From contig OX419762.1 in the NCBI GenBank assembly GCA_948567375.1, positions 31,191,465 through 31,255,464 on the forward strand: DNA of 64,000 nt, read 5' to 3'. This DNA comes from Lunularia cruciata (taxonomy: Eukaryota > Streptophyta > Marchantiopsida > Lunulariales > Lunulariaceae). The position numbers were made by a program, and so were the translations under genes. The notes beneath the pieces were generated by a model. The model did no database searches. It was given only the letters and a program-made list of their open reading frames with translations, and was not told the origin of the DNA. Each line of letters begins with the position of its first letter. Within the stretch, counting starts at the first letter, position 1. This document shows positions 5,835 to 38,570 of this stretch, piece after piece.

Positions 5835-5900
5835 TCGGCCCTCCCGAAAGGTGAGTCCTTAGGTGCTGGTGACACCTTTGGACAATTGCGCTTCTACAAT

Positions 5901-7829: not shown

Positions 7830-7922
7830 TTGTGAGGTTGCCTTTCGGGATCTTTGCGCATTATTCTTCTTCCTTCCCTCGCTTCTACTTCCTTATTGAG
7901 CCAGTAAGGCCGCGAGGTACAT

Positions 7923-8999: not shown

Positions 9000-9029
9000 C
9001 TACGGATCCATGGTTCCTGCAACACCCAA

Positions 9030-17430: not shown

Positions 17431-18308
17431 GGAAGACAAATGCACAAATGATTTTTGTAAATGGAGTCCTAGAAGGAAATCAAGTGAGAGTATAGATAGA
17501 CCCTAGAGCAATAGAGAATTCTTGTCTCACTTTGTTGCAATAAGGTTAGAGATGGAACTAGAGAAGAATGAGAATGAAGAAGTAGAGTTACCTTATGGTT
17601 AGATTGAGAGGATTGAGTTATTACCTAAAAAGGTAACACTCTCTATAGAAGAGTATCAAGAAGAAATACAATGGCAAGTGATATAGTTAGCTTGTTGTAA
17701 TATGATCTTAAGATGTCATGGATGAAGCATTAACCAATTGTATGCCAAAGTCTCAAACTGCAAGTTTGGAAAGTCTAAAGTAGATTACTTGGGGCATAGA
17801 TTATGTGAAGAAGGTATCTAAATGTTAATAGATAAATAAAGGTCATTCAAAGTTGGTGTGCTCCAAAAGATCAGACTCTACTCAAGAGTTTCTTAGGTAG
17901 ACTAGGTTCTATTGCCAATTCATCAAGGACTTCTCCAAGCTTGCACAACCTCTACCAAGACTTTTTGTCAAGGAAAAGAAGTGGATGTGAGGAATTGCAT
18001 AAGAATTGGCCTTTTAAGAATTGAAAGATGCATTACTACATGCACCAATCTTAAATAGTATGACTCAAAACATCTAATCTTGACTATAGATGCATCAAGT
18101 GTTGCAATTGAAACAATCCTACAATAAGAATGGAATGATGGATGACATCCAATTGCATATTTCTCTCAAAAACTATTACTAGCTAAATGCAGCTATCACA
18201 CCACCAAACAAGAAGAGTTGAACATTGTTCTTGCAACCAAACATTGGGAAAAAGGCATCTTGTATCTATCTTGGCAAGAAGGCATTTGTAGTGGAGATAG
18301 ACAACAAA
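17431..18308 (+). pseudogene. B2 protease, reverse transcriptase and RNase H region (fossil)
   Basis: [15 protein letters not shown] near 17450-17495 matches the B1 protease start. From about 17740 the sequence is RT end and RNase H (CKFGKSKVDYLGHR near 17765-17800, then the RNase H start at about 18070-18120), up to the A3 insertion point; it resumes at 32060. Confidence 0.8.
18304..18308. repeat. A3 target site duplication, left (ACAAA)
   Basis: ACAAA precedes the left A3 LTR and recurs at 32060-32064. The B2 RNase H sequence is interrupted here and resumes after the second copy. Confidence 0.9.
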
Positions 18309-18808
18309 TATAAAAGACCAAGGAGAGAAATAGAAGAATGGAAGATTGGAGTTGAAGATCACATTGGGACTCTTGAATGAGGAAAACTTTGAATGCTTAA
18401 CATGAGCTTAGGCTTTGGTATTTATAGGGAAGTATACAAGGCTCTTTAGAAGTTTCTCAAGAAGTTTCCTAAAATTTGTCTTTGTAGAGTGCAAACCAAA
18501 CTAATCAGGAAGCTTCTCAAGAAGCTTCTTTCTTGAAACCCCCTACTTGGCATGTGAGACAAGCTAGTTGAGAAACTTCTCAAGAAATTTCCTTCTAGAA
18601 TCACCTACTTGGCATGCAAGCTAAGCTAAGCTAGCCAAGAAGCTTCCTCCTAGAAGTTACCACTTGGCATGCACATTACCCAATACTTGGAAGGTACCAA
18701 GTAGCTTACTATATGCTTTTAGAATATTCTTACAGTTATTGGCTAATTTGGTATATTTGCTACTTTGTTAGTCTTGACTAACTCATCAATAAATTCCATA
18801 TTGTTACA
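18309..18808 (-). repeat. A3 3' LTR
   Basis: A 500-bp LTR. The plus strand contains three degenerate ~70-bp repeats, each with CTACTTGGCATG or CACTTGGCATG (about 18530-18680), and a TATA-like GGTATTTATAGGG at about 18416. Confidence 0.9.
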
Positions 18809-18822
18809 TATTCTCCCACCAC
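18809..18822 (-). other. A3 polypurine tract
   Basis: The minus strand reads GTGGTGGGAGAATA immediately before the 3' LTR, matching A2. Confidence 0.75.
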
Positions 18823-18830
18823 TAGTTGGT

Positions 18831-19443
18831 GATGTCTTTGTTACCATGGAGGCTTCAAAATCCTAGATGGCTGTGTGTGTATTTTGGAGATAAGAAAGAG
18901 ACTCCTAAGTGGCATCATGAAGAGGATATCCTTTCCAAAGGACTTTGTACTCCATATGTTGTTGACGGTCATGTTGAATATGGTGGCGTGCAAGGATACA
19001 ATCAACTTCATACTCCTCATGAGTTTTCATAGGGATGAGAGTAGGAGTAGGAGGGGTTTGGACACAAGAAGAAAGGGAAGATGGATTAGAGACAAAGGGT
19101 TTCAACTTGAAATATGAAAGAGGGGGTAGATTTGCATATGACAAGGAAAGACAAGTTGATAAGCAATACAAAAAATGATTTGGGTGACATCAAATGGACC
19201 TATCCAATTAGGAGCAAGCTTACAAACTTGAATATCAAGTAGGAAGGTTACTAGAAGAAAGTATGACCTTCTCACCAAGTTGAAAGGTAAGATCATGACA
19301 ATGTTGGTCCATGTATTGTTTTTGACAATTTTGAGCAACAAGGAGATGAGATTTGGCTTGTTGTAGGGATTGTGATATTATGGTCAAGAAGGTGGAAGTA
19401 TGAGGGACATGAGATGGAGGAGGAGCAAGAAGGGATTTGGAGC
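18831..19443 (-). pseudogene. A3 integrase C-terminus and chromodomain (fossil)
   Basis: The minus strand encodes a GPF-type segment (KLAPNWIGPFDVTQI, within 19102-19341) followed by a chromodomain (18905-19060) with EEYEVDCILARHHI, EYKVLWKGYPLHDAT. This is the best-preserved chromodomain of family A. Confidence 0.85.
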
Positions 19444-19689
19444 TGTGAGCCAGCCTGTCTCTCACTCCGGATGAACCTGTGATGGCTATTATGGTAGTGC
19501 ACCATGGACTAAGTAGGCAAGGAATCCCAACTCCATCATACTCCTCCAAGGCTAATACTCCAAGACTCAAGACATTGCTCACTAGAGAACTCAATGAGAG
19601 AGAGATAGTTGCAAATGAAAGGATGACAAGAAATTCCTCACCCCTAGTTTATATACTTGTGAAATAGTTATGCACCAAAGTTACTTATT

Positions 19690-19694
19690 ATTGG
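19690..19694. repeat. D target site duplication, left (A)TTGG
   Basis: ATTGG precedes TGTCACTCC. TTGG follows GACA at 29403-29406. The undisturbed C LTR at 33277-33300 reads ATTATTGGGGTAACTC, so removal of D restores the C sequence. Whether the duplication is 4 or 5 bp depends on who owns the shared A. Confidence 0.8.
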
Positions 19695-20145
19695 TGTCAC
19701 TCCATTTGTAGTTCCGCATCTAGATGCTCGGACAATGGAGTTCCAATGATAGTAGTTAGAGTTATTCTAGCAGTTTCTCAAAGACTACTTTCCGAAGGTT
19801 AGATTTTGTGTTTGGGGTACTGACTTCATGGTGGGGCCTACCGTCACTTTGCACCATTCGCACCGTCGAGTGTGCCGTCAGCGGGACCGTTAGGGTTTCA
19901 ATGCTAGCTCAAGTCCAGGGAGTATAGTTTCGAAGTGAGCTCCAGAGAGCTCACTTCTCTGATGTTGAGCATTTGAGTTCCTGGCTATGGTGGACAGAGG
20001 CCGGCGAGCGTCACCTGGATTCTCTATGCTTGAGTGGGTGTGGCTTGACTATAATCAGTGCCCAATTGTTGGCAGTTTATAGAGTGACAGATCAAGCACT
20101 GATCTGAGTTGAGTTGAGTTGAGAGTGGTAAGCAATCTGATTACA
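19695..20145 (+). repeat. D left LTR core
   Basis: 451 bp from TGTCACTCC to about GATTACA, matching 28865-29297 on the right. It contains a (GAGTT) microsatellite (about 20106-20125) and TTTATAGAG (about 20076). Unlike the right side it lacks the ~106-bp block found at 28756-28862 and 29298-29402. TCAGAG directly after it could be the remnant of a Met-tRNA primer site. Confidence 0.8.
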
Positions 20146-21654
20146 TCAGAGAAGTGAGGTCAGGGGAAATCGGGTGTAGGAACTGTGAGTGTTGGTGGTA
20201 TCTCCAAGCTCGGTGGATCATTGGTAGCTCGATTCAAGTTCTGTGTTTCCCTAGTGTGTAGAAGATCAATCAACTGATGCAAATTTGGCAGTTAGGCGGA
20301 CAGTGCGCGGAAGCGCTGGCCAAATTTTGAGCAAAGAAAGAGCAATTTTTGAGCAATGTTGTGATTTTGAGCTTAGGAGGTGAAGGCAGGACCAATTTGC
20401 TGCAAGTTGGGCTCAGAAAGTCAAATTGAAGGTGGAGTTGGGAAGCTCTTCTCATGAAATTGTGATTTGGAAAAACCCGTTTTGTCAATTTGGCTCGAGT
20501 GGAAAGTTAGTGGGGGATTTGGCGGACAACAATCTTTAGGGTTTATGTCAGATTTATGTCAGATTTTGGCCAGAATTGGAGGAGTTTTTGCTGTTTGGCC
20601 AGATTTGGAGAAGGTTTGCTAGTTTGGAGGAGTTTCACAGATTTGGAGAAGTTTTGCCAATTTTGGAGGAAGTTCAAAGTGGCAACAAGAAAGGCCTCAT
20701 TTGGCTGAATCTTGGCATTTTGAGGCATAGGGCTATGGGCTATGAGAGGCTACGAAGGGCCAGCAAGCCAGCTTGTTGGCGTGAGGCTAGCTAGTTTAGA
20801 GTAGATCTTGGTCATTGGTTGGCAAAATCTGCCTTTCTTGCTAGATTGTGTGCAACAGGGTTTGACCCCTAGATCTCTTGTTCCTAGACTGGTGCCCTAG
20901 CCAACTGGTCTACCCTCACTTGTTGTCCTAGTGACTGTGCCATTGTTATCTATACACATGTAGCTTTGGTTAGGAGAGGCAATTTGATATTATTCTTGGT
21001 GATCCTGGTAGCTTAGGACTTAGGTACAAACTCTTCTTATGTCAAATGCCAAATGGTGGCAAAGTCAGTCCCGTGTTGTGTTATGAGATGGAGGGTTTTC
21101 ATTTAGATTTCTTGTGATTGGACCCCCTCCATTCTCGGCTTCCTGTTTGTGCACCACTTTTGTGTGAGGTGCCCTGATTTTTGAGCGTTGGTGCCCTGGT
21201 GTGCTCTCGATGGTGAGGCTGGAGTGATGACCAGTCAGACTACCTTTGTTTCTCTCCGGTGAGGCATGAAGTTATGACCTGCAGACCGTGAGAGTGCGTG
21301 TTATGATGGCATGTTACAGGTTGCCCTTTCCCCTAGTGTAGTTATCTCAATTAGAGTTACATTAGTGGGTGGTGCTTGGTGGTGTTGGCACTTGGTGGGG
21401 TACTTGCGGTTGCGACTTGCGGTTGCAGTTGGTGGTTTGAGTTTGCTGTTGTGGTTACTTTGTCATGACGGAGTTCTTTGGAGATTCTAGAGGAGTTAGC
21501 CCTGCAATATGCAATGGGTTTACTCGGAGTGGTGCTCGGTATCAGCATGTATCTCAGGTCCCAATGAGGGAGGAGATTGACTCTGAGTTCGAGTTTGACA
21601 CATGAGTTGATTCAGTGAGAGTGCACTTGGTATGTCCGCACTGTTGTTGTGGGA
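20146..21654 (+). other. D leader region
   Basis: About 1.5 kb between LTR core and recognisable gag with no clear coding. It holds purine-rich imperfect repeats around GATTTGGAGAAG (about 20570-20690) and a tRNA-like segment on the minus strand (20855-20930). An ATG at 21468 opens a short stretch that may begin gag. TGGTATCTCC at 20196 is an alternative primer-site candidate. Confidence 0.6.
20855..20930 (-). repeat. tRNA-like segment, probable SINE head
   Basis: The minus strand reads like a tRNA: GACCAGTTGGCTAGGGCACC (box A region), an anticodon-arm-like middle and GGGGTCAAACCCTG (box B and T-arm, stem AGGG/CCCT). The pattern fits a plant tRNA-derived SINE inserted in the D leader, or a co-opted tRNA-like leader. 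A functional tRNA gene is unlikely because there is no clear acceptor stem. Confidence 0.45.
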
Positions 21655-22927
21655 CATGGACAAGATTTATGGGGCCTCCAAAGGCCCTAGGCGTTACTCT
21701 GGTATAGTGGGTACCATTGAGTTGGATGACTTCATCCAGGAGTTTGATAGTTGGTGTGATCTACAGTAGATGCGGAACCCGACTTTGTTCACACCCTTCA
21801 TGGCATGGAAGGGGTTGTTTCAGCATCTAGAGGGTCCACCAATGGATGACTACCATGAGTTTAGGAGAGCTCATTTGGAGGAGATTGAGTTATGGAGATA
21901 GTATTGGTCTCCACATTATGTCTCCATCACTTCAAGCTTGGTGGCCAGGAGTAGATCGGCTGTACCTACGAGTTCTAGCTCGAGTAGTGTTGGTGGAGCT
22001 AGTGAAGGTGCACTAGCTGGAGATAGTGCTACTACGAGTGGAGGTACCGCTGTAGGAGGTGGTGTGGTATCGGGGTTTAACCCCATGGTGGAGTTCTTCT
22101 TGTGTTTGAGGTATAACTACCAAGGAGTGCGGACTGACAAGCTGAGGAGCTTGCAGGAGTTCCAGTGGAAGGCTGGAGAGAGCCTACGCGAGGCATACAC
22201 TCGCATGAGGCGGCTGATCAGTTTCACTTAGGGAGTTACTGAGGCTTAGGCAGTCTAGTTTTGGTATGGGATACTGGACAAGGAGTTGCAACGTAGAGTT
22301 CGTGATGCTATGTTGTTGAAGGCTACTTCGCCCACTTTGGTAGTAGTCTTTGGTTTGGCTGAGCGTATTGAGCTCAACATGGTGGAGGAGAGAGTGGTGA
22401 CATCTGGATTTGGTAGGGAGACCTCATCCACAACTGTGACTTCTTCTAGAGTGCAGCAGAGTGCACCACGCCCAGTTGGTTTTCGAGGACAGGGTGGTCA
22501 GCCCAGATCCTATGGAGCGAGTGGAGGGCCTAGTGGAGTTAGACCCTTACCCTCATTTTTGAGTCAGCAGCAGTCAATGAGTGGTGGTGTTGCTTGTTGG
22601 ACTTGTGGTGGACCTCACCATAGGAGAGAGTGTACTCAGGGCAGCAGACCTGATACCTCTAGTGCATCACAGCCAGCACAGAGTGAGCATTGCCACAGAT
22701 TTGGTCACACTAGTGACCGGTGTTTTGACCTACACCTGGAGTTACGGAGTGGTAGGGCTACTATGGTAGGTAGTAGAGGAGCTCCAATTCATGGAGGACG
22801 AGGTGGTAGAGGTGGTGGTAGAGGATCTACACCTAGTAGGGGTGCAGTACCTGCCCTTAGTTTTGACACAGCTATGGCTACTCAGATTGAGCAATTGGAG
22901 CAGAGATTGGCTAGTATGGCTATTGCT
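21655..22927 (+). pseudogene. D gag (fossil)
   Basis: Gag of the retrotransposon capsid type. Early segments are GTIELDDFIQEFDSWC and FMAWKGLFQHLEGPP (about 21705-21840). A Ser/Gly-rich linker follows, then a second helical part with YNYQGVRTDKLRSLQEFQW and GESLREAYTRMRRL (22111-22230), AERIELNMVEER, a Gly/Ser/Arg-rich stretch, and two Cys/His knuckles: CWTCGGPHHRREC (near 22600) and CHRFGHTSDRC (near 22690). It ends with an RGGRGGGRG stretch and a short helix. The knuckles bind nucleic acid in Gag. Many breaks upstream, few in the last part. Confidence 0.88.
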
Positions 22928-22942
22928 TAGAGGAGATCAGAT

Positions 22943-24355
22943 TTGGGTGCTGAAGCTTCCGCCTCATATGCTGGTGATAGAGATGCTTTGGACTTCATGT
23001 GCGGAGCAGCACAAGTGGATGCATCTGTAGTAGTGACTAGGAGTGCAGTACGTGCTCCAGAGCCTAGAGGAGCATCAATGGAGTTGGACCCAAAGAGAGG
23101 AGAGGTTGGGAGACAGGTCAGATTTCCCCAGTCCTTCATGCTATCTGAGGCATTGCAGATGACATCTATGGTTCCTAGACGTCCCAGTGTAGGTGTGGTA
23201 AGTGGTGATGGAGTACATGATGGACTACTTGCTAGTCAGCCACCTGCTACTACACAGACTGAGTCTAGCATGATGTTGGGGGCGGCTCAGCTGATTATGC
23301 GGCATCCTTTGTTTTCAGCCAGTGACATGTTTACATTGGGAGTTGACCCAGCCCCAGTATTCCGGTTGGCTGCCATGTTGTGTGAGAGTAGGGATGGTGC
23401 AGTTCCTACTACTAGAGCAAAGGTGGTTGGTAGTGGAGCTGACTTAGTTGAGGAGCATGGGATCCGTTCAGCGACCAATGGTTTATGGCAGGCAGCAACG
23501 GCTAGACTAGAGGAGTTGCTAGCTAGACCGGCCTTTGAGAGAGCACGGTTTACACCTGGTGTTGTCCTATTGGATAACCAGAGGGGGATTTTTTGTTTGG
23601 TGGGACCTTCAGGGAAGGTCTATACACCACAAAGAGTCTTGTTAGACTGTGGTGCGCAACCCCTTATGTTAGGGAAGGCTGCAGTTGTTGGTCTGGAGTT
23701 ACAGAAGACCGATGTGGAGAGGTGTCTATTCCAGATCCAGACATCTCTTGGTGGTGGTTCGACACAGTACATCACACGTGGAGAGCTTGTTGTCCAGGTT
23801 CAGCCTGGTCATCTGACTGATAGCTCGGTGGTGAGAGCTCAGGCTATTGCGACAATAGTTGAGTCATATGATGTGCTAGTTGGGGGAGCAGTGTTATACC
23901 CCATGGGTTTCAGCATTGACTATTGGGAGGAGACAGCCTCTTATAGACCTAGTTGGCAGTCTAGTGAGGGATGGGTATGTCGCCTACCAGTACGCTTTAG
24001 TAGTGGCAGTCTTGGCTCACTACAATCCGGGACCATGGCAGCATCAGTTTTAGCTTTCAGCGGTGCAGTTACTTGGCCTGGTGACTTGTTGGAGGGGAAC
24101 GCCCATGCAAAGGATACTCCAGTACCAGAGGAGATCACTCGGCTTTGGAGTATGAGTGGGATTGTTCCATCCACCTTGGATGTTCCATTGTGGAGTTCAG
24201 AGGAGGCATTGCAGCAGCATGCAGATCAGTTGGTGCAGCAGGCTTGGAGTGGAGCCTTCGTACCATTAGGAGATGAGCGTGAGGATGAGCTTCCAGAGGC
24301 AATTGCTTTGATACCTCTGGATACCACACTCATTGCTTGGCAATATCCAGTAGAG
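22943..24355 (+). pseudogene. D protease region and linkers (fossil, open)
   Basis: Part of a 496-codon open stretch. The first ~210 codons are an unrecognised linker with several Ala/Val-rich segments. The retropepsin-like part is RVLLDCGAQPLMLGKAAV (active site D-x-G-A, near 23635-23690) through YDVLVGGAVLYPMGFSIDYW (about 23868-23930). Another ~140-codon linker (WPGDLLEGNAHAK, VDVPLWSSEEA-like) leads straight into methyltransferase motif I at 24356 in the same frame, so protease and methyltransferase were one polyprotein. Confidence 0.82.
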
Positions 24356-25300
24356 GGGATATGCCTATTGGAGTTGTTTGGTGGGATCAACACCGGACTA
24401 GTTGCGGTGTTACAGGCGGGTATACGAGTATAGAGGTACTTATATGTAGAGAGAGATGAGACTGCTAGGCGAGTCTCTCTACATCATGTAGCACACTTGG
24501 CCTATCGGTATCCGGAGTTATTACCGATGTCAGCAGTTAGAGGTTACCAGAAGGCCCTACGAGGAGACATTTCCTTACTGGGGGCGCATGACCTAGAGAG
24601 ACATGGGCCTATTCACTTGGTGATTTTTGGATGGCCATGTCAGGGACATACACGTGCTAGTAGAGGATTGGGTCTTCAGGATCCTCGTTCTGGTGTGTTT
24701 TGGGAGATGTTACGGATATTATGACATCTCTAGGTTCATGAGTCCATTTCTCCAGATTACCTTTTGGAGAACATTCCTTTGATGGGTGATTCTTGCACTA
24801 GAGTGGTGGCGAGTACACATCAGGTCCATTCTTGGATGGGACCTGCTATATTGTTAGATGCAGCCAGAGTGGGATCACGGGCTCATCGTCTTTGTCTTTG
24901 GTGGATGAACCTCTTACCCAGAGAGGTTCTACAACGTGCTTATGATGGGATTCAGTGACTTGACCACATCCTTGTTGATGATATCTTGGATGTTGGGCGT
25001 TAGTCTCAGACAGTGGTAGTGGCTGATAGGTCACCTATGGCAGTGGTGAACCGAGTTGGATAGCCTAGAGCTGCATTTCCCACACTCTCATGCTTTTCAG
25101 GAGGGAGGACTTGGACTTGTTTGGGACTCACTGTTACAGCAGTTGGTGGAGCCCAACGCTAATGAGAGAGAGCGGGCAATGGGTTTTCACACCGGTATTA
25201 CCGCTATTCCAGTAGTGTCAGAGGCATCCAAGCGTCAAGTGTTAGGTCAGGCTATGGACCTGAACTGTTTGACTTGGATTGTGAGCCTTGGCTTGGCAGA
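24356..25300 (+). pseudogene. D C5-cytosine DNA methyltransferase, DNMT3-like (fossil)
   Basis: All core C5-methyltransferase motifs appear in order. Motif I (AdoMet binding): LLELFGGINTGLVAVLQAG at 24356-24430. Motif IV (catalytic Pro-Cys): IHLVIFGWPCQGHTRAS, Cys codon at 24638-24640. Motif VI: YLLENIPLMG (about 24755-24785). Motif VIII: LDAARVGSRAHRLCLWWMNL (about 24855-24912). Motifs IX and X: ERERAMGFHTG and RQVLGQAMDLNCLTW (about 25165-25285). DA-x-x-V-x-x-AHR-x-x-x-W-x-N-L and F-x-G-I-x-T-G-L resemble DNMT3 rather than DNMT1, CMT or bacterial Dcm. The family transfers a methyl group from AdoMet to C5 of cytosine. Position between protease and RT makes it element-borne cargo, not a host gene. 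It is broken. Confidence 0.9.
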
Positions 25301-25689
25301 GCAGCATAGGATGCGCTTGATAGGCATCACCACTCGGACACTTGTGAGCCCTGTGCCTATTGAGATGATTTAGGCACATGCTGGGGGCGATGGACCAAGT
25401 GGACAGGGTATTCTTGGGACACATCCTGTAGCTACTAGGGAGAGTGGTCTACTTGGAGTCCATCCAGGTGAGCGTGGGCTACTTGGATTACACCCTCGGT
25501 CCACATGGGATGCAGCTAGAGGACGTGTGGAGCTTGCAGCCAGAGTGGAGGGAGTTTTTCACATAGAGGTTGGGACCTCTAGTGGTCAGAAGCATGACAC
25601 TATTGCTCCCAAGGGCCCAATGTAGCAGCCAGTCAGTACGTCTTCCACTCCTACTACAATTACAGAGGATACTTGGGAGCCAGATCTTG
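25301..25689 (+). other. D linker between methyltransferase and reverse transcriptase
   Basis: About 390 bases without a recognised domain, presumably a polyprotein spacer. Imperfect direct repeats around CTACTTGGAGTCCATCC and CTACTTGGATTACACCC occur at 25449-25495. Confidence 0.5.
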
Positions 25690-26535
25690 GACCCAAGCTT
25701 ACTAGAGAGGAAAGACGGAGGGTTTGGAGATTCTTGAGGAGTCACACGAGTTGTTTTGCCTTCAATTTGAAGGATTTGGGTGCTCTGAAGGGACCAGGTA
25801 TACGGATTGAGCTGACTAGCAACACACCAGTTTTCTGACGTCCTTATCGATATAGTGATATGGAGAGGACATTGATTCAGAGCCGGAGTAGTGACCTTTT
25901 TGAGGCTGGTTTGGTGGAGATTTCACATGGAGAGTATGCATCAGCGACAGTGATGCCAACCAAGAAGGATATGCATGGCAACTATATAGATAGGCGGATG
26001 TGTGGAGATTACCGTCCTATCAACCAACAGACTAGGGCTGATCGATATGCCATGCCTACACCGGAGGAGATTTTTGATGGGATTGGGCATGCAAAGGTCT
26101 TCAGTACTTTGGATCTTTGAGCGGGATATCATTGGTTGCCGATTAGGGAGGAGGATAAGTCCAAGACAACATTTTGGGCTAGTGATGACATTTTGGTTTA
26201 TAGCACTACTGTGGAGCAGCATGAGAGATAGTTGTTGGAGGTGTTTGAGAGGTTGAGATCTCATGGACTCAAATTACATCTTGGGAAGTGTAGGTTCTTC
26301 CACAAGCAGGTTGAGTATTTCGGTCACACTATCTACCCCGGAGGACTTGGTGTTCAACAGACCAAGGTGGAGGCTATTGCACGTATTCCTTGGCCTACGA
26401 ATGTGAGCAGAGTGCAAGCATTCCTTGGGTTGGCAAACTTCTATTGCCGCTATGTTAGAGGATTTAGTGCCATTGCCAAGGCCTTGACGAAGTTGACCAA
26501 GCTTACACAGGAGTGGTGTTGGGGAGATGAGTAGG
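25690..26535 (+). pseudogene. D reverse transcriptase (fossil)
   Basis: RT segments in order: LTREERRRVWRFL and FAFNLKDLGALKGP lead-in, RSSDLFEAGLVEISHGEYAS, MCGDYRPINQQTRADRY, PTPEEIFDGIGHAKVFSTLD (26058-26117), DDILVYSTT with the catalytic Asp pair (about 26188), LHLGKCRFFHKQVEYFGH and VQAFLGLANFYCRYVRGFS. The YRYSDMERT and GEYASATVMP signatures differ clearly from families A to C, so D is a separate Ty3 lineage. Confidence 0.9.
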
Positions 26536-26549
26536 AGAGAGCTTTTGTA

Positions 26550-27190
26550 GAGCTCAAGGAGAGGTTGACATCTGCTCTTATTTTGAGGAGACCGATCAGG
26601 GGACGACCATTTCAGGTTCACACTGATTGGAGTATGTTGGGGCTTGGAGCGGTGCTCACCCAACATGATGATGAGGGGAAGGAGTTTGTGGTGGCCTATG
26701 CTAGTTGCTCCAATAATTCAGCGAAGGCAAAGTATAGTTCATATGAGGGAGAGTGCTTGGCAGCAGTTTGGGCAGTAGCACATTTCTGATATTACCTATT
26801 TGGTAACCCCTTCACTCTCATCACTAATCATCAGCCGCTGAAGTGGTTGATGGAGTCTGATAAGCTTTCAGGGAAGCTTGCATGATGGGGTCTGATTTTA
26901 TAGGAGTATGATTTCACGGTTGTTCACAGACCTGGAGTGGTGAACCGTGATGCAGATGGGTTGAGTAGAAACCCATGTCCCAGCCAGCAGGATCAGACCG
27001 GAGCACGTTTGCATGGTGAGACAGATGAGGAGATGGTGCTAGGTTGGCATGCATCGGCCTTTCTGTGTATATTTGCAGAGGCTTTGGTGGTATCTCTCTC
27101 AGCGCATACAAGAGGAGTTATTGAGGTCACAAATCCAAAGAGTGAAGATATTGGTACAGTTCAGCGAGACATTCATGATGATGTCTAAGT
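26550..27190 (+). pseudogene. D RNase H and connection (fossil)
   Basis: RNase H segments FQVHTDWSMLGLGAVLTQHD (near 26611-26670), YSSYEGECLAAVWAVAHF (26736-26789) and the ITNHQPLKWLM segment are followed by VVHRPGVVNRDADGLSRNPC, the conserved RNase H end of Ty3 elements (N-x-x-A-D-x-L-S-R). Confidence 0.9.
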
Positions 27191-28250
27191 GATGGACTAT
27201 CTTCGCACTGGTGTTGTGGGTGGCACAGTTAGGGCCAAGGAGAGAGACTGTGTTCTTCAGCAAGCCAGACGGTTCAGAGTGGAGGGTAGACACCTTTTGC
27301 GTGTTTGGGAAGATGGTAGAGTGTGAGTAGTACCACTTCCATTGGTCCGTCATGCTCATGAGGAGCTAGGACATTTTGGAGTAAAGCGTACATATAGCTT
27401 ACTCCAGAGTCATTATTGGTGGCGCGGTATGCAGACCGAGGTACAGCAGTTTGTTGCCTGATGTGTGGTTTGTGACCGAGTTAGAGCATCATTCAATGCT
27501 CCTATGTCACAATTACACCCATTACCTATCATGGGATTGGGTTACCGTTGGAGTTTGGTTTTTGCCGGACCTTTACCGCTGACTGTGAGACATAATTGGT
27601 ATGTTTTGGTGATGGTAGAGCACTTCTCCAAGTGGATTGAGTTGGTGGCACTTCCTAACAAGTCTAGTGAAGGGACAACTTACTCGTTCCTAGATCGAGT
27701 TCTTAGTCATTTTGGTGCACCAGCTGAGGTTTTGACTGATCAGGGTACAAAGTTCTTGGGGGAGTTTCAGGTCTTGTGTGACAAGGCTTTGATTGATCAT
27801 CATACTACTTCCCAAGATCACCCTGAGGCAGATGGCTTAGCAGAGAGAGTGGTTCAAACGGTGAAGAGAGGATTGCGAAAGTATGGTTTGCAGAGAGGTC
27901 ACTTGGGAGATTGGGATCTCCAATTACCTTGGTTGGCCATGGGCTATCGGTTCAGCTGGCAAGCCTCCTTAGCATCCTTCTCTCCATACTTTCTACTCTA
28001 TGGACGAGATCCAGATTTACATGCAGCCATTTGTCGAGATGCTACTGTAGTTTTGGATTTGGATGACCCTGATGTATGGAAGAGCGCATGTTCTCAGCGG
28101 GCAGAGATCTTTCGGAGAGTGATGCCGATGGCCTTTGAGAACTTGGCGATTGCTCAGCATAGAGATACTTTACGCTATGCTACCATTCAAGGAGGAGGTT
28201 ATAGACCCTTGATCCGTCAATTTCATCTAGGTGATTCTGTATATCTACAG
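27191..28250 (+). pseudogene. D integrase (fossil)
   Basis: An HHCC zinc-binding region (HEELGHFGVKRTY, then a Cys pair near 27460-27475) precedes an integrase core inside a 262-codon open stretch (27465-28253): LVMVEHFSKWIELVALP, the second Asp in VLTDQGTKF, and the Glu in HPEADGLAERVVQTVK. The core is well preserved. The C-terminal part (QFHLGDSVYLQ) is the usual post-core beta domain. Confidence 0.92.
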
Positions 28251-28253
28251 TAG

Positions 28254-28600
28254 ACAACACCAACAACACTTGATGTTTCTACAGGATGCACTATCTTGAG
28301 AGTGTGTGAGGTTTTGCCATCTGGAGTCCTTGTGTTAGAAGGACGTGATGGTGTTGTTTGGAAGGATCATGTGCGCAATTGTGCGCCATGCCACCTTCCA
28401 AACATTGATGGTGCTATGGACCCAAGCTTGGCACTTGTATGTGCAGGCTTGAGGTGTATGTTATGTGGCTCTTCTGGTGGAGCTGCTACTATGTTAGTGT
28501 GTGATAGTTGTTCAAGAGGATGGCATGTATGACTCCTCCCCTCACGGTGGTTCCTCAGGGACAGTGGTTATGTCCTAGATGTACTTGACCTATAGCTAGT
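28254..28600 (+). pseudogene. D PHD-finger-like C-terminal domain (fossil)
   Basis: After a beta-rich segment (VLEGRDGVVWKDHVRNC) the sequence shows a zinc-binding Cys/His cluster: CMLC at 28455-28466, then MLVCDSCSRGWH (about 28491-28526), and a W-L-C-P-R-C signature immediately downstream (28563-28584). C-x2-C ... C-D-x-C-x-R-G-W-H ... W-x-C-P-x-C is the hallmark of PHD fingers, many of which read histone H3 tails. It occupies the place that the chromodomain has in chromoviruses. Broken. Confidence 0.78.
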
Positions 28601-28757
28601 TCATTCTTTATATGGTATAGATTGCAGACAGGCGACTAACGATGGGGCTCCATAGCACCCGACCTCTTGATCTTTGCCCATTGGAGGGTATACCATATAC
28701 TTAGAGTAGATGGCTATCTGGAGTTAGAGGGACCTAACCACCAGCTAGGGAGGCAAT
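28601..28757 (+). other. D 3' non-coding region with candidate polypurine tract
   Basis: No coding seen. CTAGGGAGGCAAT at 28745-28757 is the only purine-rich run near the right end and directly precedes TGTGGCAC, which would place the true LTR start at 28758 rather than at 28865. Confidence 0.5.
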
Positions 28758-28862
28758 TGTGGCACTTTAGAGTCTATGTATGACTTATGTGTGAGTTGTG
28801 TTTCTATAGTGTATGATGTTGACAGCAATGAATGTTGTGTAGCGATGTATATACGCACGACA
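28756..28862 (+). repeat. D ~106-bp block, inner copy
   Basis: From ATTGTGGCACTTTAG to CGCACGACA, repeated nearly identically at 29298-29402. It lies between the candidate polypurine tract and the LTR core. Confidence 0.9.
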
Positions 28863-28864
28863 AC

Positions 28865-29297
28865 TGTCATGCCATTTGTAGTTCCGCATCTAGATGCTCG
28901 GACACTGGAGTTCCAATGATAGTAGTTAGAGTTATTCTAACAATTTCTTAGAGACTACTTTCCGATGGTTAGATTTTGTGTTCAAGGTACTGACTTCACG
29001 GTGGGGCCCACCGTCACTTTGCACCATTCACACCGTCGAGTGTGCCGTCAGCGGGACCGTTAGGGTTTCAGTGCTAGCTCAAGTCCAGGGGGTATAGTTT
29101 CAAAGTGAGCTCCAGAGAGCTCACTTCTTTGATGTTGAGCCTTCGAGTTCCTGGCTATGGTGGACAGAAGCCAGCAAGTGTCACTTGGATTCTCTATGCT
29201 TGACTGTAATTAGTGCCCAGTTGTTGGCAGTTTATAGAGTGACAGATCAAGTACTGATCTGAGTTGAGTTGAGTTGAGAGTGGTAAGCAATCTGATC
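28865..29297 (+). repeat. D right LTR core
   Basis: 433 bp homologous to 19695-20145 (about 94% identical by eye). One ~17-bp length difference corresponds to a duplicated GGCTTGACT-like stretch on the left. It is flanked on both sides by copies of the ~106-bp block. Confidence 0.9.
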
Positions 29298-29402
29298 ATT
29301 GTGGCACTTTAGAGTCTATGTATGACTTATGTGTGAGTTGTGTTTCTATAGTGTATGATGTTGACAGTGATGTATGTGTGTAGCGATGTATATACGCACG
29401 AC
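29298..29402 (+). repeat. D ~106-bp block, outer copy and right end
   Basis: Second copy of the block; its end GACA forms the right terminus of D, followed by TTGG and the rest of the solo C LTR. Confidence 0.9.
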
Positions 29403-29843
29403 ATTGGAGTAACTCAAGTTACTAGGCTAAAAGTCAGTAAAGTCAAAAGTAATAAAGGAATATCCATCCACATGGGCATATTCCACTAAGCATGTGATCT
29501 TATCTTGACCCAACCACTAAGTCAAGGATTCCTTCACATGGGCTATCCTTGGACTATAGAAGAATCCAGAAAAAAGCTTGTGGTTCCAAGAGTTCTCAAC
29601 TCTTTCTTCAAAGCTAAACATTAGGAATAATACCAAGTCAATACACTAGAATCCAAAATAATAGTGCTCATCTTTTCCACTTCCTCTAAAGTAAGGTCCC
29701 CTTTATCTTAGCTATGACTAAATTTAGCTAATCATGACTAATGTAGAACCGTCCTTTATCTATATGTAAATAATATCTCTCAAGTACTAGTAATACCAAA
29801 CTAAATATCACAATACTACATATATGCACAAGTGGGTGTTATA

Positions 29844-31080
29844 GAACAAGTGGGTCTTGGCCAAAATTAAGGATAAAGGGAGAGAATCTAATGCTTGCTT
29901 GTTTGGAATATTGTAGGTAAACACAACAATTGCAAGATATCATCCTAGTTGGTACGTTGAACATTTACAAAGGCACAAAGCATATCTTCCAAGGTGAGAT
30001 TTGCATCTTTGGCTGTTTTATCAATTTGAGGATGATAGGTTGTGGAAAAATCAAGCTTGGTGTCGAGTAGTTAGAAGCGTGCTTGCCAACATTTTTTGAT
30101 GAATCAAGAATCATAGTCCGAGATGAGTACACAAAGCATCCCATGATGCTTGAAGACATTGTCAAAGTAGATATAGGCCAATGTTGGAGCATCCACTATA
30201 TCAAAGGATGGTGCCAAATGGAGTTTTTTACTAAGCTTATTGACAAACACCAAGATTTTGGTGTGTCCTTGCTTTGTCTTGGGCAATATTTTAATAAGAT
30301 CTGAGCTTCTATGTTCCCATTAAGAAAATAGGATGGGAAGTGGTTGAAGGAAACCACTCAGTTTTTGGTTGCATTGGCAACTCTCACAAGATTGGCCAAA
30401 CTCTCAAAAATCTTGTGCCATGTTGGGCCACTACCATTGGCATTGTAGGGTACCTAGGGTCTTGTCCACACCCATGTGACCAATGATTGGTAAATCATGG
30501 GTTTCTTGAAGGTGCACAAGTCATAGATCATCCTTGGTTGGACCATAGATATGGTTCTCATAAAATAGAAGACCTTCCTTGAAAAAGAAGGTGGTATATT
30601 CCTTGTCATGTGTTGCAAGATGACCTTGTACCATTTGAAAGAAGAGGTCTTATTGTAAAGCTATCTTGCCACTATGATGAGGAAGAGACTTCAAATCAAG
30701 TTTTTGTTATAGGGCATCAAGGATGACATGGAGCTTACCAGGTTTGTATTCAAGTTTAAAGTCAAACTACTATAGTTGTTCCTCCCGTTGATAATGTTGA
30801 CTCTTCATGTGCTCCAAATATAATGACTCCAACAAGGGTTTGTTATCGGTTTGCATGATCATTTATTTCTCTAAGAGATAATGCCTCCATACCTTGGTGG
30901 TATATACCATTGCTAGATGTTGTTGATCTCAAGTAAAGTAATTCCTTTTTGTGTTGTTTAGTCAATGAGACACAAAGACAATATGATGTAACCCATTTAG
31001 AAATTCCTACTGCAATACAACTCCAATGGCAAAGTTAGAAGCATCAAAATCAACCACACAAGCTAGTTCAAAACAATATT
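29844..31080 (-). pseudogene. A3 integrase core and RNase H region (fossil)
   Basis: Continues A3 to the right of the nested insert. ILVFVNKLSKKLHLAPS and IYFDNVFKHHGMLCVLISD (30104-30286) are integrase-core segments; 30780-31080 aligns with the RNase H end of A1 (about 1080-1400). Confidence 0.75.
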
Positions 31081-31554: not shown

Positions 31555-31565
31555 CTCTAATACCA
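31555..31565 (-). other. A3 primer-binding site (tRNA-iMet type)
   Basis: The minus strand reads TGGTATTAGAG, one change from the Met-tRNA complement TGGTATCAGAG, next to the 5' LTR. Confidence 0.8.
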
Positions 31566-31567
31566 AT

Positions 31568-32059
31568 GTAAAAGATTGAGGAGAGAAATAGAAGGATGGA
31601 AGATCGGAGTGAAAAATCACATTGGAACTCTTGAATGAGGAAACTCTAAATGCCTAGCATGAGCTTAGTTTTTGCTTTTATAGGAAATTATACAAGGCTC
31701 TTGAGAAGTTTCTCAAAAAGCTTCCTTAAGCCGTCTTCTTAGAGTGAAAGTCAAGCTAACCAAGAAGCTTCTCAAGACGTTTCCTTCTAGAAGCCACCTA
31801 CTTGGCATGTGAGGTAAGCTAGTTAGGGAGCTTCTCAAGAAATTTCCCTCAAGAAGCCACCTACTTGGCATGCAAGGTAAGCTATCCAAGAAGCTTTCTC
31901 CTAAAAGTCACCACTTGGCATGCACATTACCCAATACTTGGAAGGTACCAAGTAACTTCCTAGACGCTTCTAGAATATTCTTATAATTCTTGGCTAATTT
32001 GGCATATTTTCTACTTTGTTAGTATTGATTAACTTGTTGGTAAACTCCATATTGTTACA
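31568..32059 (-). repeat. A3 5' LTR
   Basis: A 492-bp LTR ending TTGTTACA on the plus strand, partner of 18309-18808, with the same CTACTTGGCATG repeats (about 31795-31925). Confidence 0.9.
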
Positions 32060-32064
32060 ACAAA
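32060..32064. repeat. A3 target site duplication, right (ACAAA)
   Basis: Second copy of ACAAA after the right A3 LTR end TTGTTACA. Confidence 0.9.
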
Positions 32065-32330
32065 TCTCTTGTCTACCTCAAGACATATAATGATCTATCT
32101 TGTTGATAGATTTGTTGGGTAGAGTGGAGAGCATGGTTCAACATGACAATCATATATGTGGAAGGTAAAAAGCAACTTGTAGATGCAGTCACCCAAATGC
32201 CTATGGTGACCAATCTGGTAATAGAGGTTAAAATGAACCCAAAATTCTGGCCAAGATCCGTATTGCTACAAAGATTGACCCACAAGTTGTAGGATCTCAA
32301 TCATCAAAGGCATAACTAATACCTAAGAAA
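32065..32330 (+). pseudogene. B2 RNase H end (fossil)
   Basis: Resumes the B2 reading cut by A3: [20 protein letters not shown] near 32140-32200 matches [20 protein letters not shown] of B1, followed by the NPKFWP segment. Confidence 0.85.
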
Positions 32331-33029
32331 TCACCTTCCGTAAGGGCAGGTTATGGATACTAGATGCTCTAGACCTAAGAACCACCATCCTACCAGAATG
32401 TCATAATTTTGCCATTGAAGGTCACATTGGAGTGGAAAAGACCTTACATGCACACACCACTATTATTGGCCCAAGATGAGCACCATGTGATGGAGTACGT
32501 TCAAAGCTACCAACTCTATCAAAAAAGTAAAGCCTCTAATCAAGCTTCTATAGGACTCCTTCAATCCTTCCCTACTCTTACACAACATTGGGAGTAGGTC
32601 AACATGGATCTAGTTTATGAATTGCCCAAGATCACCTCAAGTTTTGACTCCATTGTAGGCTTTGTAGACCAACTCAACAAAATGATTCATGTGTGTCCTA
32701 CAACTAAGAGTGTGATTGCTCTACAATTAGCTCAATTGTCTTTAGCTATGGTATTTTCTCACTATGGCTTATCTTGAGTGCTCATCATTGATCATGCTCT
32801 AAACTCAATTCACTAGTTTGTTTAGGAGAACACTCTTTGGCGTCTTCAAAACCAAACTTGCTATGTCTATGGCATACAATCCACAAATCAATTGAAAAAT
32901 AAAGTAGGCCAATTGCACTATCAAAGACATGCTCTGGGCTTCACTTTAGATGAGCAAGAAAGGTATGACACCTTACTTCCATTGGTGAAATTTTCTTACA
33001 ACATATCAATCAATGCATCTACATGGGTC
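32331..33029 (+). pseudogene. B2 integrase, first part (fossil)
   Basis: Contains ECHNFAIEGHIGVEKT-like zinc-binding sequence near 32400-32440, YQLYQKSKASNQASIGLLQS (32505-32560), the SFDSIVGFVDQLNKMIHV core segment near 32640-32690, and KFSYNISINAST-like sequence near 32985. It is interrupted by a solo C LTR in the segment before the chromodomain. Confidence 0.85.
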
Positions 33030-33720
33030 TATGAGCCAGCCTATCTCTCACTCAAAATGAACCTTTGATGGTTATTGTGGTAGCATACCATGGACTAAGA
33101 AGACAAAGAACCTCAACTCCATCATACTTCTCCAAGGCTAACACTCCAAGACTCAAGAAATTGCTCTCTAGAGAACTAATGAGAGAGAGAGATAGTTGCA
33201 AATGAAAGGATGATGAGTACCTCCTCATCCCTAGTTTATATATCTGTGAAATAATTATGCACTAATGTTACTAATTATTGGGGTAACTCAAGTTACTAAA
33301 TTTTTTTTAATTAAAATCAAAAAGCTAAAGGAATATCCATACTCATGGGAAGATTCTCCTAAGCATGTGGTCTTATCTTGACCCAACCACTAGGTCAAGG
33401 ATTCCTTCATATGGGCTTCCCTTGGACTTTAGAAGAATCCAAAACAAAAAGGCTTGTGGGTCCAAGAGTTCTCAACTCTTTCCTCAAAGCCAAACACCTA
33501 AGAATAATACCAAGTCAATACACTAGAATCCAAAATAGTGGTACTCATCTTTTCTACTTCCTCTAAAGTAAGATCACCTCTATCTTAGCTATGACTAATT
33601 TTAGCTAATCATGACTAAGGTAGAACCATGTTTTATCTCTATATAAATAATATCTCTCAAGTACTTATAAAACCAAACTAAATATCACAATACCACACAC
33701 ATGCATAAATTGGTGTTACA
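33030..33720 (-). repeat. Solo LTR of family C inside B2 integrase
   Basis: A 691-bp C LTR in minus orientation, from TATGAGCC to GGTGTTACA. Flanks GGGTC (33025-33029) and GGTCA (33721-33725) indicate a 4-bp (GGTC) target duplication; B2 rejoins on removal. The plus strand carries the complement of the family TATA box (TTTATATATCTG, about 33236). Confidence 0.9.
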
Positions 33721-34165
33721 GGTCACACTTATTCTTCCTCATGTAAGGAGACATCCTTTCACACCTTCAAGCTTGGTAAAGATCCACCCAATGGCTATAA
33801 AACTTGATGCTATCAACACTTTTGTTTCTAGAGTCCAATAGGGTGTTGAGAATGCCAAGCATAGGTAGTAGATAGCCCAAAATCAACAACAAAAATGTAG
33901 ATGCACATCATAAGCACATAGAGTTCAACATTGGGGATCATGTGTGGTTATCCATAGCCAAACTTACTTGTAAGCTCACATTTTGTTTTATTGGACCTTC
34001 TCCCATCATCTATCAAATCAATGCAATGACCTATCACCTTGAGCTACCGCCACACATAAATATACATCCAATGTTCCATGTTTCCTTGCTATATAGATAT
34101 GCACTCCAACTACTCCACTTTTCTTCCATACAAGAAGTTAGACCTTGTCCAACACTCATTGATGG
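33721..34165 (+). pseudogene. B2 integrase, second part (fossil)
   Basis: Resumes the B2 integrase: IKLDAINTFVSRVQ near 33796-33840, FNIGDHVWLSIAKL near 33930-33960, GPSPIIYQINAMTYHLELPP and IHPMFHVSLLYRYA near 34000-34110 match the B1 segments one for one. Confidence 0.88.
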
Positions 34166-34478: not shown

Positions 34479-35155
34479 TGTAACACCCATTTATGCATGC
34501 ATGTGCTATTGTGATATTTAGTTTGGTATTATGAGTACTTGAGAGATATTATTTATATAGAGATAAATGATGGTTTTACATTAGTCATGATTAGCTAAAG
34601 TAAGTCATAGCTAAGATAGAAAGGAACTTAATTTAGAGGAAGTCAAAAAGATGAGCACTCCTAGTTTGGATACTAATGTGTTGACTTGGTATCATTCCTA
34701 ATGTTAGCTTTGAGGAAAGAGTTGAGAACTCTTGGAGCCACAAGCCTTTTTGTTTTGGATTCTTCTAAAGTCCAAGGATAGCTCATGTGAAAGAATCCTT
34801 GACTTAGTGGTTGGGTCAAGATAAGATTACATGCTTAAGAGAATATTCTCATGAGTATGAATATTCCTTTAGCCTTTTGACTTTATTTGATTTTTAGCCT
34901 AATAACTTGAGTTATTGTAGTAATTAGCAACTTTGGTGCATAACTATTTCACAAGTATATAAACTAGGGGTGAGGAGGTACTCATCATCCTTTCATTTAC
35001 AACTATTTGTCTCTCTCATTGAGTTCTCTAGTGAGCAATGGTTTGAGTCTTGGAGTAGTATGATGGGGGTGGGGTTTGTTGCCTCCTTAGTCCATGGTGC
35101 GCTACCATAATAGCCATTAGAGGTTCATTCTAAGTGAGAGACAGACCGGCTCACA
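34479..35155 (+). repeat. C1 5' LTR
   Basis: 677 bp, TGTAACACC...GCTCACA. Homologous copies are the two solo LTRs (19444-29843, 33030-33720), the 3' LTR and the C2 LTR. Confidence 0.9.
34956..34963 (+). promoter_or_regulatory. C family LTR TATA box
   Basis: TATATAAA within ACAAGTATATAAACTAGGGG. The box and its flanks are conserved in the 3' LTR (about 42052-42060) and in both solo LTRs, which makes it the likely Pol II promoter of the family. Confidence 0.65.
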
Positions 35156-36719: not shown

Positions 36720-37660
36720 TGAGGAGAATTCTAGTTTTCTTTGTTTAGGATGGAGAAGATGTAGAGGCCTTTGTGAGAGACTTCAAGAGAGCTTGCACAG
36801 GAAACAATGAGAGGAGGAAGAATGAGTGGATCTCATTATTACCAGATTTCTTTGAAGATGCAACCCTTACATGGTATGAGTCAGAATACCAAAAGAGAGA
36901 GAAGAGAGATGGGCAAGAAGAGGCTTGGGAGAGTTTGACTTCAGCACTCATTGAAAACTTTCTTCCAGCTGAGAGTTATGAGAGATTGATGAGTGAATTT
37001 ATCTTCTTCAAATAAAGAGATGGAGAGAAAGTGAGAGTTTATGTAGAAAGAGTGGAGAAGTTGGAGTCCAGATTTTGCATAGTGTTGAGGAAGGGTGGGA
37101 AGATGTAGAGACTATCATGAGTGACATAGGGGCCATGCTCACCAAGAATTTTGTGGGAGGGTTGAGACTACATATTAGAAGCAAGGTGAGATATGAGAAA
37201 CCTTCTTCTAAGGTTGAAGCTATCAAGATTGCAAAATTGTATGGCGGAGAGTTTGGAAGGGAATGAGAGTGATTTGGTGGTGAAGAAGGTTGTGCATCCT
37301 CCTCAAGGCTACAAGTATGGTAGAACTTATGATACTTTGGTGGCAAGGGTTGCACAACAAGTAGCAATTGATCCAATTCTTGCATCTCTACTAAAAGATC
37401 CACTTCAAACCATCATAGAACAACTTGCAGATCTCAAGATCAATGTATGCAACTATGGGAGAAGAGAGTGGTAGATCAAAATGTGGGGAGAAGGCCTAGG
37501 AGTTATGGAAGCTATCCATATAGAAGAGTCCAACCAACCAACAATTTCAATGATACAACTTGTTTTGGTTGTGGAGGAAGAGGTCACATCCAAAGGAATT
37601 GCCCAAATTCTACTTCCCATGGAAGAAGGGGTTATGAGAGAGCCAATTAGAGGGAAAGAG
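36720..37660 (+). pseudogene. C1 gag (fossil)
   Basis: The retrotransposon gag domain is clear: VEAFVRDFKRACTGN, LLPDFFEDATLTWYESEYQ, EEAWESLTSALIENFLP (36760-36975), then EKVRVYVERVEKLESRF. Near the end is a CCHC knuckle, CFGCGGRGHIQRNCP (37561-37605). An Arg-rich patch precedes the knuckle. Confidence 0.9.
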
Positions 37661-38570
37661 GGAGGTAGTGAAACCCAAGTGGCTCCTAATCCAAAAAAAG
37701 ATAAAGAGATAGCATCCATAGATATGATTGCGAGGAAGTATGAGAAGGAGGAGTGCTCAAACTGCAAAAGTCTTAATTTAGAGCTTTTGGCACAAGAGAA
37801 GAAGAGAACTTGTTATGTAGAGGATGTACACTCCTCTCAAGGATTTGCTCCTAGTAAGGATACTCTTATGTCTCCTAAGATTACTTGCACCTCAACACCA
37901 TCAATAACAAAGACTCCAAGAAAGAAGTTTAGGATGGAGGACTTCTTGATCTTAAAGTAACAATGAAACTGCAATTTGTTAGAAGGTGTTGGGACACACA
38001 AGGCTAACATCATAGTGGACCAACTGATTGCTTTAAATCCTACCTTGAGAAAGGAGCTTAGAGGAGGTTTGAGTTCTACAAGGAATAAGAGGAAGAAGAA
38101 GGTAAAAGCTCCAATGTCAATGGAGGTGGTGGATGCTAAACTAGCACCATGGGAGGCTTGTGAATATGCCTCCAAGATTGATATGAGAATGAATAGTCAC
38201 AATATTAAGGATGCACTTGTTGATAGAGGATCAGCAATGAATGCCTGATAGAAAGGTTGATGAAGAAGTCGGGTATGCTACCCTCTAGACCTCCAACATT
38301 TGTGGGTGAGCATGGAAAACAAGCAACAGGTTTGACTAGTGGGTGATCGATAGGGTGGTAGTTTCAATTATGGAAGTTCAAAATCTCATGACTTTCCAAG
38401 TCTTGAAGGATTCAAGTTATGATTTGCTCCTTGGGAGGCAATGGTTGAGAGCAACACACACAACTCATTGATGGCACAAAGGGCACTTGAGGATTGGGCT
38501 ATCAAACCATAGAGTTAAAGTTCATGTAACTAACACCACCAACACTTCACATTTAGATACACCATCTTTT
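37661..38570 (+). pseudogene. C1 protease region (fossil)
   Basis: A Lys/Glu-rich linker with a Cys pair leads to IKDALVDRGSAMN (about 38200-38245), the likely aspartic protease active-site region, and YDLLLGRQWLRATHTTH-like sequence (about 38410-38470), the protease C-terminal G-R-x-W-L segment of Tat-type elements. Confidence 0.75.

Follow-up and report, generated by a model that had tools for sequence, protein, structure and literature searches.

A C5-cytosine methyltransferase (MTase) is a family trait of an abundant, recently active Ty3/gypsy-type family of retrotransposons in the genome of Lunularia cruciata. This host is a liverwort, and the family is probably a land-plant member of the group of retroelements that carry such enzymes. 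Cytosine methylation is normally directed against transposons, whereas the family described here carries the methylating enzyme itself. Previously described elements of this kind come from a land-plant relative among the green algae, and the available part of PMC6338049 states that they are absent from the land plants, a published statement that a young family in a liverwort would overturn. No land-plant report of such an element was found in the titles and abstract starts that were searched, a set with most subscription journals and preprints outside it. Given the stop-free MTase copies, A repeats that in some copies differ by no more than 1-2%, and a host with DNMT3 and DRM enzymes of its own, the reason why an element should carry a silencing enzyme becomes a testable question.

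Structure of the element

The window is the whole stretch of 64,000 nucleotides that was analysed, and its copy of the element, of the Ty3/gypsy type, is 9,709 bp long (19695-29403). The features of this copy are listed below.

19691..19694, + strand: target-site duplication, left copy (TTGG), repeated at 29404-29407
19695..20143, + strand: repeat A1, the left end of the element (TGTCAC...), matching A2
20144..21460, + strand: leader, right border approximate; at the A1 border, a TGG start of a primer-binding site is lacking
21460..22930, + strand: gag region, decayed, seen as ORFs and conserved in other copies
22931..24352, + strand: protease region, with DCGA at 23645-23656 and the frame shared with MTase motif I
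24353..25370, + strand: C5-cytosine methyltransferase (MTase), with motifs I-X unrearranged and with PDB and Pfam matches
25623..25631, + strand: in-frame UAG and CAGCCA (which fits CARYYA), between the Gag-protease-MTase and RT-integrase-PHD parts
25626..26531, + strand: reverse transcriptase (RT), RVT_1 E 0.0003 (26232-26531), below the cut-off
26535..27188, + strand: RNase H, RT_RNaseH_2 E 3.5e-24 (match 26535-26786)
27189..28253, + strand: integrase (rve, DDE type), PF00665 E 5.3e-11, core 27462-28250
28454..28588, + strand: PHD finger, C-terminal in the Pol part, with its frame broken here and a Pfam PHD match under the cut-off (E 0.004)
28747..28755, + strand: purine-rich tract just before B1, a G-run in other copies
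28756..28862, + strand: repeat B1 (ends GCACGACA), with a 2-nt spacer next (28863-28864)
28865..29297, + strand: repeat A2, matching A1
29298..29403, + strand: repeat B2, the right end of the element (GCACGACA), matching B1
29404..29407, + strand: target-site duplication, right copy (TTGG), paired with 19691-19694

The protease, RT, RNase H and DDE integrase follow one another in this order, which bears out the placement of the MTase in a Ty3/gypsy-type element by a preliminary description of this DNA. The protease enters this order by its motif only, and neither a Pfam protease match in the scanned piece of the window copy nor a Pfam gag match in the scanned piece of the gag region was obtained, the latter region containing a cysteine/histidine cluster near 22590-22650. 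The RT of the window copy falls below the Pfam cut-off because part of it is missing, approximately 125 nt by comparison with other copies. The PHD finger is complete in the copy L011, where its best PDB match is a CHD4 chain (E 3.5e-17). The permuted repeats, the position of the MTase upstream of a conserved UAG, together with Gag and protease, and the terminal PHD finger are points that go beyond the preliminary description.

The methyltransferase domain

The MTase that had been noticed within the retroelement at 24356..25300 is real, and the domain continues past the proposed end at 25300 to approximately 25370. Segments corresponding to motifs I (LELFGGINTGL), IV (GWPCQGH), VI (LLENIPL) and VIII (GSRAHR..WWMNL) are found in order in a single frame, from 24353 to approximately 25043. 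This frame is the continuation of a 500-codon ORF (22931-24433) that includes the protease, and the MTase is indeed in frame with the protease, as had been proposed. The full series of motifs originally listed holds for these four, but the sequence resembling motif X, at 25050-25370, is out of frame with motifs I-VIII (one frame change), and motif IX is not clear. The frame is interrupted by five stops (24431, 24722, 24731, 24956 and 25001), so the window copy cannot produce the enzyme. The RT does lie downstream of the MTase, as had been described, but a conserved stop (25623-25625) separates the two.

The best PDB match of the window MTase is DNMT3A (E 8.3e-9, with 186 residues aligned, for a query of residues 1-231 in which X stands for the stops); the same 231 residues match DRM2 in the PDB set at only E ~0.005, and in this set they also match 4onj, a chain with the name DNA methyltransferase, at E 0.0018. 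In Pfam, the DNA_methylase match has an E value of 9.4e-5 and 22.4 bits (cut-off 22), while in NCBIfam there is only a weak match to dcm (22 bits; cut-off 100.65). The MTase frame of L011 is open, and matches DNMT3A in the PDB set at E 1.3e-10. A chance resemblance of motifs is ruled out by these Pfam and PDB matches, including that of the open frame of L011. The MTase of the element has the unrearranged, DNMT3-type order of motifs, with PC, ENV/ENI and RXR, and an identity as a DRM is also ruled out, given that motifs VI-X were not seen before I-V, unlike in the rearranged DRM of the host. The label "DNMT3-like" is apt for the motif order and for the best match among solved structures. As for membership of the DNMT3 clade, trees with and without a group of the retroelement MTase and DNMT3/DRM are equally good (AU 0.48 and 0.52). 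A structure prediction of the MTase alone had a mean pLDDT of 29.9, and was not used as evidence.

Copies of the element in the genome

The genome that was searched comprises 565,766,749 bases in 74 contigs, and the best 40 places recovered with the window MTase comprise the window and 39 further places at 89-92%. Twenty of these 39 MTase-found places were fetched at 10 kb, and the MTase stands directly after the protease in 20/20, its presence in all of them being due to the fact that they were found by the MTase. The RT comes next in 18/20, and the other two, L021 and L025, are interrupted.

A fairer test is provided by a search with the RT/RNase H, the 40 most similar places of which again include the window. 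In a manual comparison, eleven of the other 39 coincide, at the right distance, with places found by the MTase. The 28 others were fetched, 8 of them at 701 bases and 20 at 201 bases, with 24/28 containing the MTase. The preliminary description had proposed that other copies free of the MTase would indicate a one-off insertion, an explanation that is ruled out by its presence in 35 of the 39 other copies among the 40 best RT/RNase H matches, which makes it a trait of the family. The four exceptions (L159, L163, L172 and L173) were each read over 201 bases, never including protease sequence. Two of the exceptions match a repeat that is also present in stretches of L019, L021, L024 and L025, while the only matches of L173 are to window sequence beyond the borders of the element, and L163 matches no sequence compared. 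Older relatives of the family that are free of the MTase may exist beyond the 40 most similar RTs.

Layout of the polyprotein

The layout of the family, Gag-protease-MTase, then UAG-CARYYA, then RT-RNase H-integrase-PHD, is constant in the copies read. Among the 25 copies examined with a probe that contained the CARYYA motif itself and allowed 7 edits, the UAG is in frame, approximately 250 bases 3' of the MTase, in 24/24 copies in which the site was found (all except L021), and CARYYA follows it directly in 23 of these 24, the exception being L022. In L043, an open frame runs from the beginning of the locus and ends exactly at the UAG, with the next frame continuing in phase. Frames of 1428 or 1431 codons are present in ten places, with the end at the UAG checked in L043 only, and L012 and L014 have 1037 open codons downstream of the UAG.

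The CARYYA motif is a readthrough signal that is important in tobacco mosaic virus, according to the available part of PMC4132726. From the position of the MTase on the Gag-protease side of the UAG and its CARYYA context, we infer that the MTase may be made at the level of Gag, with the RT-integrase-PHD part being produced by readthrough.

Permuted repeats and integration

The repeats of the element are arranged in the order A-coding-B-A-B, as in DIRS elements, but together with a DDE integrase. Its outer tips are TGTCAC.. and ..GCACGACA, and where B1 meets A2 inside the element the same tips are separated by two bases. In the fetched copies, the left ends start with TGTCA in 16/16 cases read, with A followed by the leader in 16/16 and by B in 0/16, and the right ends are B-A-B in 14/14. 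The identical direct LTRs at both ends that are expected of Ty3/gypsy elements are not present, since the left end has A only and the right end B-A-B.

A 4-bp target-site duplication is present in 10/10 copies with both ends read and plain, that is, in the window, L010, L011, L012, L014, L015, L016, L017, L018 and L027. The left end is missing in L020, L026 and L028, and the right end was unread in L009, L013, L019, L021 and L025. An uninterrupted related site near 33140-33430 of the window reads ..TTATTGG and then GTAACTC. The element thus combines the short target-site duplication of Ty3/gypsy elements (4-6 bp) with the split repeats of DIRS elements. An element of the tyrosine-recombinase (DIRS) type is ruled out by the rve integrase, the 4-bp duplications, and the lack of any Pfam tyrosine recombinase in the ten pieces of the window element that were scanned. 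The right end of L023 has B2, two bases, and then a further A repeat, as if tandem elements shared a border.

The permuted repeats and the DDE integrase represent a second, separable puzzle, which concerns the replication of the element. Conventional reverse transcription from the purine tract before B1 would yield DNA with an LTR of the form B-2nt-A, of which the integrated form would be a permutation, cut at the B/A border. One option is a two-LTR circle that is opened every time at one particular border of the two identical ones; in the other, which is DIRS-like, the RNA would extend over nearly the whole distance from A1 to B2, with the inner B1/A2 border restoring the tips. The second option is favoured because left ends of the form A-B-A are absent. 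This replication model is guesswork, given that no tRNA primer site was recognized by a TGG start at the A1/leader border in any of the 6 copies examined. A short perfect hairpin, TCTGAT-TAC-ATCAGA, lies at the A1/leader border (~20135-20152), where the tRNA primer site would be expected, and is possibly a self-priming signal.

Age, decay and selection

The family was active until recently. The distances between A1 and A2 are 0.009 (L014), 0.011 (L011), 0.016 (L010), 0.020 (L012) and 0.024 (L015) in the young copies, and 0.051-0.081 in L027, L016, the window, L018 and L017, those of L015, L016, L027 and the window being based on the first 430 bases only. Along the MTase frame of L011, small gaps aside, 14 of the 41 aligned copies have no stop. 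The stop-free proportion varies because the copies were found in two ways, and amounts to 3/21 in those chosen by their likeness to the window (window included) and 11/20 in those from the upper part of the list ranked by DNMT3A. The catalytic Cys is kept in 40/41 copies, and the Glu and Asn of motif VI in 41/41, while the first Arg of motif VIII is kept in 35 copies (changed in 6) and the second in 25 (changed in 16).

The C-to-T decay of the copies L009-L028 and the window affects 13.7% of cells in CG, 10.0% in CHG and 1.7% in CHH, a pattern that suggests long CG and CHG methylation in the host. Transversions shared by at least 3 of the 41 MTase copies, which should mostly predate insertion, comprise 8 silent and 2 replacement changes, versus 46 silent and 112 replacement changes (stops included) among those of single copies. 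This contrast (p 0.002) depends on the cut, with p 0.14 for all changes and p 0.50 for transversions in at least 2 copies. The protease region, RT/RNase H and integrase show the same direction at few sites (p 0.06, 0.17 and 0.03, respectively). These counts are a weak sign of purifying selection on the MTase, a hint rather than proof.

Other repetitive sequences in the window

A less decayed Ty3/gypsy chromovirus is present at 4500-8999 on the minus strand, with gag, protease, RT, RNase H, integrase and chromodomain. No methyltransferase match was obtained in the five frames of this element that were scanned, which makes it a useful control in the same genome. The repeats that flank the MTase-bearing element recur in the window (18300-19707, 29423-29844, 31560-33721, 34691-35022 and 41786-42087), and one of their relatives supplies the empty site at 33140-33430. 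L019, L021, L024 and L025 also have stretches related to these flanking repeats, and interrupted copies are among these four. The ORF at 49090-49575 matches the DDE_Tnp_4 transposase at E 1.2e-4, just under the Pfam cut-off, and the ORFs at 37475-37960 and 38829-39308, of approximately 160 codons each, have no Pfam match at E 0.01.

Origin of the methyltransferase

The host genome has a DNMT3 (L041), with its exons apart, and a DRM (L044) with the rearranged order of motifs. The MTase of the element shows 24% identity with the host DNMT3 and 28% with a DNMT3A fragment; with four phage MTases, the identity is 25-29%. Phage C5 MTases (records H1-H20) score closer to it than the host DNMT3 does. 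Its branch is very long, at 2.5 or 3.4 substitutions per site in two maximum-likelihood trees. A scan of viral contigs with the MTase of the copy alone gave no match, and a scan with a mixed alignment contributed the best 80 of at least 467 loci; a protein was obtained from 74 of these 80, and thinning left 21 for the tree. A tree with the retroelement MTase grouped with DNMT3/DRM has an AU value of 0.48, against 0.52 for the best tree, in a small sample with a viral set picked by likeness to the query. A sister relationship with the host DNMT3 scores AU 0.026, KH 0.03 and SH 0.24, and one with the host DRM, AU 0.066. Capture from the present DNMT3 of the host is, on these tree comparisons, weakly disfavoured.

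The combination found here, of a Gypsy polyprotein that includes a DNMT and repeats of the DIRS type, is also what the text and figure legend report for KnitGypsy-Dnmt3 of Klebsormidium nitens (De Mendoza et al. 2018; PMC5890265, in the part available). The DNMT of that element is placed in the Pol ORF, and the Figure 4 legend gives the element DIRS-structure repeats together with gypsy domains. Descent in common with this element of charophyte algae is most likely. An independent capture in this plant lineage, from the host DNMT3 or DRM and unrelated to KnitGypsy-Dnmt3, had been offered as an alternative to a land-plant member, and would follow the recurrent capture that the same part of PMC5890265 presents as the rule, in dinoflagellates versus algae. 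It is improbable, however, given that the sister relationship with the host DNMT3 is rejected by AU and KH, although not by SH, and that the A-coding-B-A-B repeats are common to this family and, by its published description, KnitGypsy; the sister relationship with the DRM is not rejected. Shared ancestry is thus the likelier option, because the same repeat order is stated for KnitGypsy-Dnmt3. A viral or phage-like source of the MTase, rather than a eukaryotic DNMT3, is a tentative proposal that is compatible with the other readings. It draws on a blastp search with the MTase of L011 in one small set, where the four phage MTases (E 5e-22 to 5e-20) outscore the 166-residue DNMT3A fragment (3e-13), the host DNMT3 (7e-8) and the DRM (1e-6), but this comparison is biased by the shorter DNMT3A piece and by the choice of the viral set for its similarity to the query, and the trees with and without the retroelement-DNMT3/DRM group are equally good.

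Possible role of the methyltransferase

Near-constant catalytic residues, 4-bp duplications at the A/B tips and young copies are all observed in this family. The best overall explanation, to which we assign a probability of roughly 0.55, combines the layout described above with an active self-methylating MTase made at the Gag level, DIRS-like replication, gypsy-like integration and descent shared with KnitGypsy-Dnmt3. The MTase would be an active C5 methyltransferase that forms part of the Gag-protease product, with many copies packed into the particle, while the RT-integrase part would be made by leaky termination at the UAG. As a neighbour of the protease in the polyprotein, the enzyme would methylate the new DNA of the element before or during integration, and the host may then take the premethylated copy for resident methylated DNA, not for naked foreign DNA. 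Replication would be DIRS-like in one respect, with the inner B1-2nt-A2 junction, in which both tips are joined, restoring the tips, whereas integration would be gypsy-like, through the DDE integrase and a 4-bp staggered cut, with the PHD finger possibly guiding integration to chromatin. The MTase most likely methylates new DNA, and passing as resident DNA is the first choice for its benefit, with self-restraint the second. Points against this explanation are the heavy CG/CHG decay of the copies, for which silencing by the host would suffice, the changes at the two Arg of motif VIII, the dependence of the selection contrast on the cut, and the lack of activity of the KnitGypsy MTase in the published yeast test.

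The same element may instead use its MTase as a restraint, marking new copies for the maintenance methylation of the host and damping its own spread, which would spare the host. This role is raised as one possibility in the Discussion of PMC5890265, in the part available, and would fit the strong C-to-T decay at CG and CHG relative to CHH. It is rather unlikely, however, given that the DNMT3 and DRM of the host may methylate the copies anyway, and that the family still expanded recently. Less probable again is an action of the MTase on RNA, or a role as a nucleic-acid-binding part of the Gag-protease product with no DNA methylation. Its location on the Gag side of the UAG, its very divergent sequence, and the inactivity of the KnitGypsy MTase in yeast (in a test that its authors termed inconclusive, in the part of PMC5890265 available) would be consistent with such a role, but the catalytic Cys, Glu and Asn are almost invariant in the 41 copies, and the best match among solved structures is a DNA methyltransferase. 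The most far-reaching reading would be a land-plant element with a Gag-level dose of MTase through a leaky UAG, premethylated DNA, and an A-coding-B-A-B genome inserted by a DDE integrase that cuts inside the conventional LTR, in a life cycle intermediate between gypsy and DIRS that predates the arrival of plants on land, a proposal that we consider speculative.

Comparison with known systems

Cytosine methyltransferases in charophyte Ty3 elements and in dinoflagellates had been cited as precedents, and the available part of PMC5890265 confirms the first, in Klebsormidium, whereas the dinoflagellate carriers, SymbioLINE-Dnmt and SymbioDIRS-Dnmt3, are LINE and DIRS elements, not Ty3. In the same source, de novo CG methylation in yeast is shown for the DIRS-borne DNMTs. 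A more recent article, citing the work of De Mendoza, mentions DNMT3s carried by streptophyte and dinoflagellate elements of the LTR Copia and DIRS types (PMC12344493, 2025, in the part available). DNMT3 is reported as not detected in angiosperms in the available part of PMC6453930, in keeping with a host that is not a flowering plant. Bursts of Ty3/Gypsy elements and a uniquely small U chromosome are described for L. cruciata itself in PMC9985172, the main text of which has no word beginning with methyltransferase.

The family resembles KnitGypsy-Dnmt3, compared by description, in its Dnmt3-related MTase within a Gypsy polyprotein, its DIRS-type repeats, its set of gypsy domains and its several copies. 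It differs, on the same basis, in its probable land-plant host, in having the MTase upstream of a conserved UAG, which stands between it and the RT, in the 4-bp duplications shown here, and in the PHD finger, a term that is absent from the main text of PMC5890265. SymbioDIRS-Dnmt3 and SymbioLINE-Dnmt also represent retrotransposon-carried cytosine MTases, which are under selection and linked to a hypothesis of self-methylation in the part of that article available, but the former has a tyrosine recombinase and the latter is a LINE, in contrast with the DDE integrase and 4-bp duplications found here.

The MTase itself is similar to the DNMT3 of plants and animals in its motif order and in having DNMT3A as its best PDB match, but has PCQG where DNMT3A has PCND, and is only 24-28% identical to the DNMT3s. 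It differs from the plant DRM in its unrearranged motifs, those of the host DRM being rearranged. The element as a whole shares with the chromoviruses, such as that at 4500-9000 of the window, the order protease-RT-RNase H-integrase and a chromatin-reader domain after the integrase, although here a PHD finger takes the place of the chromodomain, and the MTase and permuted repeats are further differences. A PHD finger is also reportedly found in another Ty3/gypsy element, REM1 of Chlamydomonas.
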